A stretch of DNA of 49,346 nucleotides from the NCBI RefSeq assembly GCF_001879695.1, contig NZ_MNBL01000006.1, positions 1 to 49,346 of the forward strand, in the 5' to 3' direction. Source of the DNA: Nioella sediminis. GTDB lineage: Bacteria > Pseudomonadota > Alphaproteobacteria > Rhodobacterales > Rhodobacteraceae. Of the stretch, positions 12,222 to 14,946 are shown one piece after another. Under the pieces are notes generated by a model, which was given only the letters and a program-made list of their open reading frames with translations, had not been told where the DNA came from and did not search any database. Position 1 is the first letter of the stretch. Each line of letters opens with the position of its first letter. The translations under genes were made by a program, and so were the position numbers.

Positions 12222-13316
12222 TCACTTGGCAAAAACAAAACAACGGTCACGCCGGATCGTCAGCCAAAGCGCCATTCCGGGCTTGGGCAGGAAGACCGCG
12301 GGGACCGTTGCCTTGAGGATCTGGTTGTTGAAATCCATGCGGAATTCCACAAGGCTTTCATGCCCCATGAAGCGGGCCCGTTCGACCACGCCGCGCGCAG
12401 GCGCTCCGTCCAGGGGGGTTGGGTTCGGACCGCGTCCGCCCCGATCGAAGTCGATCTTGACGTGTTGCGGGCGGAAGATGATTTCGACCTCGGTGCCATC
12501 AGGGTGACCGGGGGCAAGGAACTGGCCGAAAGCGGTGTCGGTCAAGGCACCCTGAACGGTGCCGGTGATCACGTTGATATCGGAGAAAAACGCCGCGGCA
12601 TCGCGGTCGCAGGGGGCGTTGTAGATGTTATAGGGCGCGCCCTGCTGAACGATCCGCCCGCCACGCATCAGCGCGATCTGGTCGGCCATCCGCATCGCCT
12701 CTTCCGGTTCGTGGGTGACCAGAACGACGGCGGTGCCCTCTTCCTTCAGCAGCTCCAGCGTTTCATCGCGGATGCCGTCGCGCAGGCGGTTGTCGAGCCC
12801 CGAGAAGGGCTCATCCATCAGCATCACGCCGGGACGCGGGGCGAGGGCACGGGCGAGGGCCACGCGCTGCTGTTCGCCGCCCGACAACATGTGCGGGGCC
12901 TTGTCGCCGTAGCCTTTGAGATCGACGCGGGCGAGCAGTTCCTCGACACGTTTGGCCTTGTCGGTTTTCGTGCCGGTCAGACCGAACGCGATATTCTGCG
13001 CCACGCTGAGATGCGGGAACAGCGCGAAGTCCTGAAAGATCAGCCCGACCCCCCGTGCCTCTGGCGGCAGGTGCAATGCGCCATCCGCGAGAACACGTCC
13101 ATCGACGGAAACGCTGCCAGAGCTTTGCCGCTCGATCCCGGCAATGACCCGGAGCGTTGTTGTCTTGCCGCACCCTGATGGCCCGAGCAGGCACATGACT
13201 TCGCCCGGCGCCACCCGCAGCGAGACATCCCGCAAGACCGTCCGCCCCGCGAAATCACAGGACAGGTTCTGAACGGCCAGTCTGGGGGGCTGTTGCACGG
13301 GCGCAATTCCGATCAA
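12222..13316 (-). CDS. FbpC-type ABC transporter ATP-binding protein
   Basis: 364 residues from a TTG start. A GTG at 13298 is also possible and the start is uncertain. It has Walker A GPSGCGKTT (45-53), the Q-loop LIFQDFALFP (about 93-101), the signature LSGGEQQ (144-150), Walker B VMLMDEP (164-170), the H-loop LVTHEPEEA, and a C-terminal TOBE-type regulatory region (about 240-364). This arrangement is that of the CUT1/FbpC class energising uptake of iron(III), putrescine or similar solutes. No permease or binding protein adjoins it, so it is an orphan ATPase and the substrate cannot be stated. The 723-bp GANTC-rich region lies just upstream. Confidence 0.85.
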   Translation of the reverse strand: MIGIAPVQQPPRLAVQNLSCDFAGRTVLRDVSLRVAPGEVMCLLGPSGCGKTTTLRVIAGIERQSSGSVSVDGRVLADGALHLPPEARGVGLIFQDFALFPHLSVAQNIAFGLTGTKTDKAKRVEELLARVDLKGYGDKAPHMLSGGEQQRVALARALAPRPGVMLMDEPFSGLDNRLRDGIRDETLELLKEEGTAVVLVTHEPEEAMRMADQIALMRGGRIVQQGAPYNIYNAPCDRDAAAFFSDINVITGTVQGALTDTAFGQFLAPGHPDGTEVEIIFRPQHVKIDFDRGGRGPNPTPLDGAPARGVVERARFMGHESLVEFRMDFNNQILKATVPAVFLPKPGMALWLTIRRDRCFVFAK

Positions 13317-13453
13317 TTGTCTCGGATTTCGCAGCTATCAGCCCCGCACGCATGTTTCAAGCTCCCGTCAGGCGGGCATGTTGACGCCTTGTCCGGGAAT
13401 GCGTGCTCGATCGGGATTAAGGTATTGTTTCAGCTTCCCCGCATATCATTATG

Positions 13454-14023
13454 GAATCCGGTACTGAATCCAGACTATGCACAGGGTTATCCACAGAAAA
13501 TCAATGGATCGAAACAGCACTCGGCCCTCTCTTTCTGCACGGGACGGCCCTGCTGGCGCTTGCAGGCGGGCGAGAGCCGCTGAAAGGGTCCTATCCTTGG
13601 GATTCCGCCCAAAGAATCCCATTTATGATCAAAAATTTATTCGGATCTCAGGTCAAGAGCTGGCGAGAAGGCACAAAATCACCTCTTCCACGGCAGAATA
13701 TCGTGATTCTGGAATCTTTTTGCTGAGTCAGGCTTTGATTGCACAACTTGAGTCCGTGAATCTGGAATCCATTTTCTGACAGTTTGACCGCCAGAACAAG
13801 CCTACCTGCCCGTATCCTCGGCAAAGACTCGTTGTGGTGTGCTAATTTGAGTCAATTTCACACATACAGGTGATCCACCGAAGACAACCCCGCGCGCCTT
13901 CAGTGTGTCACCAGATTGATCTGTTTGGGAAAGACAAGCCCTCCCGTCTCGCTGAGACGAGAGAAACTTGTTCGGAATCAGGATGTTATAGGCGGAGTCT
14001 CACACGAGACCCTGTCCGGAATC
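13454..14023. promoter_or_regulatory. Cluster of 15 GANTC (CcrM methylation) sites
   Basis: Sites start at 13454, 13466, 13601, 13614, 13705, 13712, 13725, 13750, 13758, 13765, 13826, 13849, 13975, 13995 and 14019. Chance expectation at 60 percent GC is about two in this length. Several come in pairs 7 or 12-13 bases apart. GANTC is the target of the cell-cycle methyltransferase CcrM in alphaproteobacteria. Confidence 0.8.
13475..13495 (+). promoter_or_regulatory. Tandem DnaA boxes
   Basis: TTATCCACA at 13487-13495 is a perfect DnaA-box consensus. CTATGCACA at 13475-13483, twelve bases upstream in the same orientation, differs from TTATNCACA at one base. They lie at the left edge of the GANTC cluster and about 125 bases from the AT-rich patch at 13620-13642. 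Confidence 0.6.
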
Positions 14024-14039
14024 GACGAATTCGACGCCT

Positions 14040-14819
14040 CTACAGCGTCGCATTCGTCGAACCGCCGTCCAGAAGGATGTTCTGACCGACCATATAGCCC
14101 GCGTATTGAGAGCACAGGAACGCACAGGTCGCCCCGAACTCCTCTGCCGTGCCATAGCGCCCGGCCGGGATCGTCGCGGCGCGGCGGTCCATGGCCTCTT
14201 CCAGCGTGATGCCATCCTGTGCAGCGGCCGCCGTATCGAGCGATACGGCCCGGTCGGTCGCATGAATGCCCGGCAGAAGGTTGTTGATGATCACGCCTTT
14301 GCCGGCCACCTGCCGAGACGTCCCCGCAACATAGCCGGTCAGCCCGGCGCGAGCCGAGTTCGACAGGCCCAGAACCGCAATCGGAGCCTTCACGGATTGC
14401 GAGGTGATGTTCACCACCCTGCCCCATCCACGCGCCATCATCCCCGGCATCAGCGCTTTCATCAGGGCAATCGGGGTCAGCATGTTTGCGTCGAGCGCCC
14501 TGATGAAATCCTCACGCTCCCAGTCCTGCCAGCTGCCCGGCGGCGGACCGCCTGCGTTGTTGACGAGAATATCGACGTCACCGGCAGCTGCCAGCACCTT
14601 GGCCCGGCCCTCTTCGGTGGTGATGTCAGCGGCGATAGCGATCACCTCTACCCCATGGGCAGCGCGAATATCCTCTGCCGCCTTTTCCAGCGCCCCAGCC
14701 CCACGCGCGTTCATCACCAGGTTGACGCCATTGGCCGCCAGCATCTCGGCACAGCCACGTCCAAGCCCCTTGGACGAGGCGCAGACCAATGCGCGCTTGC
14801 CAGAAATTCCCAGATCCAT
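14040..14819 (-). CDS. SDR family protein lacking the Tyr-x3-Lys pair
   Basis: 259 residues from ATG 14819 after AAAAGG. An ATG at 14837 is the alternative. The Rossmann nucleotide site is ASSKGLGRG (14-22) and NNAG is at 87-90. The catalytic Ser region NITSQSVKAPIAVL is kept (Ser140). Where classical short-chain dehydrogenases have YxxxK, this protein reads LGLSNSARAGL, giving Ser153 and Arg157. A subgroup annotated as 3-oxoacyl-ACP reductase-like shares this pattern. Nucleotide binding is likely, but ordinary SDR catalysis is doubtful. It is transcribed away from the Hint-domain gene; downstream is the GANTC-rich gap. Confidence 0.85.
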   Translation of the reverse strand: MDLGISGKRALVCASSKGLGRGCAEMLAANGVNLVMNARGAGALEKAAEDIRAAHGVEVIAIAADITTEEGRAKVLAAAGDVDILVNNAGGPPPGSWQDWEREDFIRALDANMLTPIALMKALMPGMMARGWGRVVNITSQSVKAPIAVLGLSNSARAGLTGYVAGTSRQVAGKGVIINNLLPGIHATDRAVSLDTAAAAQDGITLEEAMDRRAATIPAGRYGTAEEFGATCAFLCSQYAGYMVGQNILLDGGSTNATL

Positions 14820-14946
14820 GATCCTTTTCCCCGTCATTCATGTTTCGTTAACCAGTGCCTTACCATGCTGATATCGGCCCTGCCACCTTCTGACCGCTTG
14901 ACGGTTCGCCCTGCTCGGGACTAGCCAAGGCGCAAAGGAATTCGTG

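Follow-up and report, generated by a model that had tools for sequence, protein, structure and literature searches.

The gene-free gap between a short-chain dehydrogenase (SDR) gene and an ABC ATPase gene of Nioella sediminis is interpreted, with a probability of roughly 50%, as a genus-restricted, methylation-marked cis-regulatory DnaA region upstream of the ABC gene, and not as a replication origin. The gap was found in the window, i.e. the whole stretch of 49,346 nucleotides that was analysed. The draft genome has 3,956,209 bases and 197 contigs, of which the window is C154. It contains a double DnaA box that adjoins a dense field of GANTC, the CcrM site. The two signals are real, they are linked to each other and they are under selection.

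The gap and its sequence signals

The field comprises 15 GANTC in 586 bp, with the first at 13454 and the last ending at 14023, and six of them are found within 65 bp (13705-13769). The examined part of the own genome (365,899 bases, 9% of it, window included) had 507 sites, corresponding to a density of 1.39 per kb. At this density 0.81 sites are expected in 586 bp, and the Poisson probability of 15 sites at one given place is ~1.6e-14. The second-densest 586-bp segment of these 366 kb contained five. Dinucleotide shuffles of the cluster stretch (n = 2000) gave a mean of 4.07 and a maximum of 11 sites, and none of them reached 15. The window as a whole was depleted in GANTC, its 71 sites comparing with 228 on average after shuffling; in the available text of PMC3973325, such depletion is reported for alphaproteobacteria with CcrM. 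Two stretches of the field, 13702-13726 and 13755-13779, form a 25-bp direct repeat and are 84% alike; in both copies there are two GANTC at a spacing of 7 bp.

A box scan located CTATGCACA, with two mismatches, and the consensus TTATCCACA in the arrangement CTATGCACA-ggg-TTATCCACA. They have the same direction and are separated by 3 bp (12 bp from start to start), within the 2-3 bp that define a double box. The + strand of the window has a single copy of each. A count over the own draft genome gave 13 exact TTATCCACA, compared with 21 for the reversed pattern, showing no enrichment of exact boxes. Two of the 13 have a partner (at most two mismatches, 2 or 3 bp away, same strand), namely the gap locus and a site beside uvrC that is the oriC candidate described below. 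This rarity of partners argues for the regulatory reading; the lack of enrichment argues against it, as does a looser scan (at most three mismatches over both boxes), which added one double box in the 366 kb examined.

These results can be compared with a preliminary description of the same DNA. The recount agreed with its 15 GANTC, six of them within 65 bases, and its two DnaA boxes twelve bases apart were recovered where it had placed them. Its sevenfold GANTC excess stood as an excess, the size of which was ~18-fold against the own-genome density and 3.7-fold against the dinucleotide shuffles. The gap was also borne out as gene-free, since it holds short open reading frames only, overlapping in several frames, and no Rfam match up to E = 1.

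No convincing gene could be recognised in 13317-14039, the listed frames being short and mutually overlapping. The Rfam search covered 13200-14200, and a structured RNA was rejected on its outcome together with the + strand fold of 13440-13939, which was no better than shuffles (z 0.51). The fold of the - strand was weakly better than shuffles (z -1.60, with 8 of 100 shuffles as good). Import from a plasmid or phage was discarded because 13300-14045 had no match at E 0.01 in plasmid and phage collections, and a repeat element because the gap sequence is single-copy in its own genome.

Judged by comparison, the conserved start of the ABC gene is probably the GTG at 13298. A search of NCBIfam with the ABC protein gave 188 matches; the best 25 all stayed below their cut-offs, with PhnT2 ranking first. 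The SDR protein is 98% identical to that of Nioella sp. MMSF_3534, the closest named relative in the scan, which places the window in Rhodobacteraceae. The SDR transcript probably ends at the terminator-like hairpin of the gap. The coordinates of all features are collected in Table 1.

Table 1. Positions of the features of the locus and of the oriC candidate (window coordinates, except for the last row)
Feature	Position	Strand	Basis or remark
ABC transporter ATP-binding protein (ABC_tran + TOBE_2)	12222..13316	-	domain matches
Gene-free gap between SDR and ABC ATPase genes, 723 bp	13317..14039	.	holds the element
ABC promoter-like element: TTGAAA (13360-13355), 17 bp, TAGCTG (13337-13332)	13332..13360	-	conservation
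GANTC (CcrM site) cluster	13440..14025	.	density, positions, retention under selection; sites at 13454, 13466, 13601, 13614, 13705, 13712, 13725, 13750, 13758, 13765, 13826, 13849, 13975, 13995, 14019
GANTC pair 12 bp apart, adjoining the double box	13454..13470	.	offsets -26 and -14 from motif CACAG
Double DnaA box, first half CTATGCACA	13475..13483	+	box scan; 2 mismatches
Double DnaA box, second half TTATCCACA, consensus	13487..13495	+	orthologous place in the five genus genomes holding the locus
AT-rich patch with TTTATGATCAAAAA	13620..13642	.	base composition, alignment
Terminator-like hairpin	13939..13965	-	terminator scan (2 sites found, 0.8 expected in shuffles)
Short-chain dehydrogenase (SDR) gene	14040..14837	-	borders the gap
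oriC candidate at uvrC, TTATCCACAGAAACCGTGGACAAGG	G000:C36:6944-6968 (L179; L175-L180)		

Conservation within and outside the genus

The locus was compared in five genomes of the genus, that of the window (G000) and G001 to G004. In G005, of the same genus and 81% complete, no orthologous locus was found. The gap measures 671-724 bp in the five genomes and the 19-bp double-box motif stands at the orthologous place in all of them. The gaps contain 15 GANTC in G000, 15 in G002, 14 in G003, 5 in G004 and 1 in G001, the field fading in the last two, which are the most distant species. Conservation of the cluster in close relatives, a check proposed in the preliminary description, was thus seen in G003 (14) and G002 (15) and was not seen in G004 (5) or G001 (1). 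In G004 two other 586-bp segments of the 156 kb examined, with 7 GANTC each, were denser than the locus, and in G001 the box was retained and the field was lost or never present. Both observations speak against the regulatory reading. On alignment by eye, hairpins were observed in G004 and G001 on the same side as that of the window.

The retention of the sites was evaluated between the window and G002, which are ~25% diverged (169 substitutions in 686 columns). Each has 15 GANTC and 12 of them are kept. When the same substitutions were placed randomly (5000 trials), on average 4.8 sites were kept and 6.5 were present in total, so that the observed retention has P = 0.0002. In three of the kept sites (offsets 495, 515 and 539) the N base alone differs between the species, which is predicted by selection on the CcrM motif. 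Both the retention and the N-only changes favour the regulatory reading. The same test with the closer pair, window and G003 (43 substitutions), was not significant (P = 0.10) and counts against it. Density and retention lie far beyond chance, making a chance cluster very improbable.

Selection of this kind could also act on the field for itself, as a load on CcrM or as a mark from which GcrA or another protein reads the timing, with the box being a separate promoter element. That selection follows GANTC and tolerates changes of the N base agrees with this alternative, as do the reach of the field well beyond the DnaA box and the case of G001, which keeps the box without the field. However, the two GANTC nearest to the box hold their offsets of -26 and -14 in four of the five species, G001 having its single GANTC at -27. 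In G004 both are present with altered N bases, and the rest of the gap is hardly alignable. The gap of the window also lacks the YGAKTCG context, and selection for the field alone is considered unlikely.

The ABC side of the gap has a conserved geometry. TTGAAA followed by 17 bp was found ahead of the ABC gene in all five species, and then TAGCTG in four of them and TACGCG in G004. A generic sigma-70 scan of the region gave no promoter, so the promoter-like element rests on its conservation. The double box lies 136-137 bp upstream of TTGAAA in the five species, the intervening DNA being hardly alignable in G001 and G004, and its distance to the SDR side varies from 490 to 544 bp. This fixed distance ties the box to the ABC gene and, together with the conserved GANTC pair, it supports the regulatory reading.

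Conservation of a box is in itself not special, because single boxes are also kept in all five genomes. Six of the 13 exact boxes stand at the orthologous place in all five: the gap locus, uvrC and four single boxes, and this equal conservation of other boxes weakens the regulatory reading. The four single boxes are at G000:C68:18430 (L327), C15:43680, C148:827 and C173:22743, and the one on C68 has 5 GANTC within 809 bp. A box scan of the gap across the five species revealed one conserved double box, and the further weak boxes vary between species.

For a comparison beyond the genus, tandem SDR-ABC loci were selected by an ABC identity of at least 55%, the same direction and a gap of 0-3200 bp. 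Of 111 loci, 62 were kept and 49 dropped; eight of the kept rows belong to the genus and stand for its five genomes, and the other 54 may include repeats. The gap is below 200 bp in 26 of these 54 loci, 200-999 bp in seven and at least 1000 bp in 21. None of the 54 gaps has an exact DnaA box and three have a box with one mismatch. More than three GANTC were found in a single gap (5 in 2638 bp). The region with double box and GANTC thus appears, on these comparisons, to be restricted to the genus.

A gene of ~380 codons, missing from the window, lies between SDR and ABC at L034:10774-11916 and L045:10799-11935. It has no Pfam match, and the L034 copy is also without an NCBIfam match. L034 comes from an uncultured Nioella, and its gap holds this gene and no exact box. 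The gap of the window might be a decayed remnant of this gene of other genera, given that 21 of the 54 outside gaps are at least 1000 bp long and that the two that were read (L034 and L045) hold it. No convincing trace of the protein was found in the gap (best E 0.89), and this origin of the gap is as improbable as a chance cluster.

The origin question and the uvrC site

In the preliminary description the gap had been proposed as a chromosomal or secondary replication origin. The oriC-type double box and the combination of AT-rich patch and GANTC cluster are in its favour, and a weak secondary origin need not leave a skew switch. Against it stand the absence of a skew inversion, a single conserved double box where an ordered array would be expected, the distance of the AT-rich patch and a better candidate beside uvrC, and this proposal was abandoned as very unlikely.

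GC skew, which had been suggested as a check, did not change sign at the locus, either in the window or in the relatives G001, G002 and G004. The values on either side were weak in the window (-0.011 and -0.021), and in the relatives they were +0.034 and +0.051 (G001:C80), -0.029 and -0.048 (G002:C79, minus 3.8 kb) and +0.040 and +0.060 (last 156 kb of G004:C45). In G000 to G004 dnaA and chromosomal-type parB are on contigs other than that of the locus, in draft genomes that lack inter-contig distances. Megabases separate the SDR-ABC pair of G018 from its dnaA and parB.

The AT-rich patch reported earlier is present, with 17% GC. Among the 23-mers of the gap it is one of the richest in AT, and seven of the ~49,300 23-mers of the window are as low; its core TATGATCAAAAA is kept in four of the five species. 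It begins 124 bp from the end of the DnaA box at 13495. In the majority of known origins, according to the accessible text of PMC5043019, unwinding elements lie 8-18 bp from a DnaA box, which makes the patch too distant for a usual one.

In the five genus genomes tested, a second conserved site, TTATCCACAGAAACCGTGGACAAGG, was detected, flanked by uvrC on one side and an SDR gene of pteridine-reductase-like type on the other. The site is identical in G000 to G004 and has two mismatches in G018. The exact pattern was absent in three of nine genomes searched (G008, G014 and G023), and G023 has a related box pair at uvrC (L154). Beyond its double box the genus site has an extra inverted GTGGACAA box, and a TGCCTAAAAATTAGGCA-like AT-rich stretch is nearby. 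Skew was sampled along the 4.33-Mb main contig of G018 (20 evenly spaced 20-kb samples) and switched between the samples at 1.32 and 1.76 Mb. The uvrC site is at 1.607 Mb and the SDR-ABC pair at 4.02 Mb. As the switch spans the conserved site, the neighbourhood of uvrC is the likely place of the chromosomal oriC, in the genus as well as in several related genera. In G008 the first 0.36 Mb had a skew close to zero, and the samples from 0.53 to 1.42 Mb were positive, with the exception of a negative one at 0.89 Mb; its SDR-ABC pair, at ~1.06 Mb, is within the positive stretch.

Few GANTC accompany the uvrC site: 2-3 within 400 bp on either side (800 bp) at all six loci. Nine uvrC loci of other genera have 1-3 in seven cases and 6 in two, so that GANTC enrichment may occur at other origins of the family. 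The analysis of the locus points to a likely family oriC beside uvrC, and it indicates that a GANTC cluster with DnaA boxes is by itself insufficient for calling origins in Rhodobacteraceae. The available text of PMC6699656 describes oriC predictions for 101 strains by Ori-Finder, with parAB as the only neighbour genes used.

The double box of the gap was also searched in the family. TRCACAGNGTTATCCACAG with at most one mismatch was found in 28 of 295 genomes, G000 and G003 included. Matches to the 19-bp motif (one mismatch or none) were also examined at 28 loci outside the genus, of which 9 are at uvrC and 19 elsewhere, suggesting that the motif resembles the oriC double box of some related genera. 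Two loci from two genera, L244 and L261, have similar sequence around the DnaA double box and no adjoining uvrC match; they are perhaps inside a shared gene. A DnaA-domain match was also obtained for open frames of 269-286 codons that are repeated at 14 places of G018:C1 and that we take to be, probably, copies of a transposase helper (IstB-type).

A possible regulatory role and comparison with known systems

Under the regulatory reading a DnaA dimer would bind the oriC-type double box ~137 bp upstream of the -35 element of the ABC gene, a box that is edged by two GANTC and followed by the dense field of further sites. CcrM would keep the GANTC of the field fully methylated until the replication fork passes, and after the fork they would be hemimethylated until CcrM acts again. 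Such hemimethylation would place a strong 'just replicated' mark next to the DnaA site. The likely consequence would be that DnaA, perhaps with GcrA, alters ABC transcription once in every cycle. We know of no link between the ABC ATPase of the window and replication, which counts against this reading.

Family matches to the RAMA domain (CcrM type) were obtained in all five genus genomes and in one of 14 control genomes (Caulobacter), and to GcrA in all five and in two of the 14 controls, one of them an archaeon. Based on these matches, the GANTC of these genomes are very likely methylated. They favour the regulatory reading, as does the constant skew. The locus has GANTC in a promoter region together with the CcrM-type and GcrA families, as do the CcrM/GcrA promoters of Caulobacter and Brevundimonas. 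Those promoters usually contain one or a few GANTC, whereas the locus has 15 over 570 bp. No GANTC of the window's gap fits YGAKTCG, the target context of Caulobacter GcrA; the broader YGAKTCK fits those at 13705 and 13826, and the G004 gap has one YGAKTCG. This lack weighs against the regulatory reading, as do the position of the box far upstream of the promoter (~-160) and the fact that most of the cluster lies well upstream too, exceeding what a promoter needs. For Brevundimonas GcrA, the accessible part of PMC7987155 gives no extended motif.

A close parallel to the double box was found in E. coli, where double boxes are preferred by DnaA in ChIP-seq (PMC11317965, available text). Those listed there (polA, purH, nrdD; datA, DARS2, oriC) are, like the locus, in the same direction, 2-3 bp apart and with one consensus half in most cases. 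The DnaA-bound double boxes upstream of polA and purH (same source, in part) support the regulatory reading. Unlike the E. coli cases, the locus is ringed by a dense GANTC field, its target gene has no known tie to nucleotide or DNA metabolism and its DnaA site is a predicted one.

The main alternative, which in the form of a CcrM/DnaA titration site was also among the options of the preliminary description, is that the gap is a site of DnaA titration, inactivation or reactivation of the datA/DARS kind, its state set by methylation. DnaA would be bound away from oriC, helping to time initiation, and the ABC gene would be an incidental neighbour. The locus seems to resemble datA and DARS in being non-coding, away from oriC and provided with a strong DnaA site. 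datA and DARS combine IHF or Fis sites with an ordered set of at least three DnaA boxes, whereas the locus has no conserved second set of boxes and keeps a fixed distance to a promoter-like element. A double box of the kind listed for E. coli datA and DARS2 in the available text of PMC11317965 agrees with titration, as do its rarity (of the 13 exact boxes, two are the consensus half of a double box), the extent of the non-coding region, which far exceeds the need of a promoter, and the absence of a skew inversion. On the other hand, a single double box is conserved and the weak extra boxes vary by species, the fixed distance to the ABC element is unexpected for a free-standing site, and nothing similar was seen here in the 54 tandem SDR-ABC loci outside the genus. 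A titration site is regarded as a tentative possibility.

A further parallel is crtS of Vibrio, where a putative DnaA box on the main chromosome is likewise accompanied by several sites of adenine methylation (PMC6090056, available text). The methylase site is GATC there and GANTC here, and no iteron replicon or RctB is known here. The Rhodobacteraceae oriC candidate beside uvrC has a double box in common with the locus; it differs in that in this genus it possesses the extra inverted GTGGACAA box and has 2-3 GANTC, and in G018 it lies at the skew switch. A broader idea is that of a chromosomal control site outside the origin, where a DnaA dimer site is gated by a field of CcrM sites and the passing fork resets, once in each cycle, either the activity of DnaA or a gene driven by it. 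It would represent an alphaproteobacterial, methylation-read replication clock, unlike datA, DARS or crtS, and is rather doubtful.

A search of the open-access literature by titles and abstract openings, most subscription papers being outside its range, gave nothing on the locus or on any double DnaA box set in a GANTC field. The locus pairs a double DnaA box with the densest GANTC field of the examined part of its own genome. Whether DnaA action at promoters is affected by GANTC methylation is a question left open in the Caulobacter CcrM study (PMC3973325, available text). The natural variants of the locus, with 15, 15, 14, 5 and 1 GANTC around the same box, make this question directly testable.
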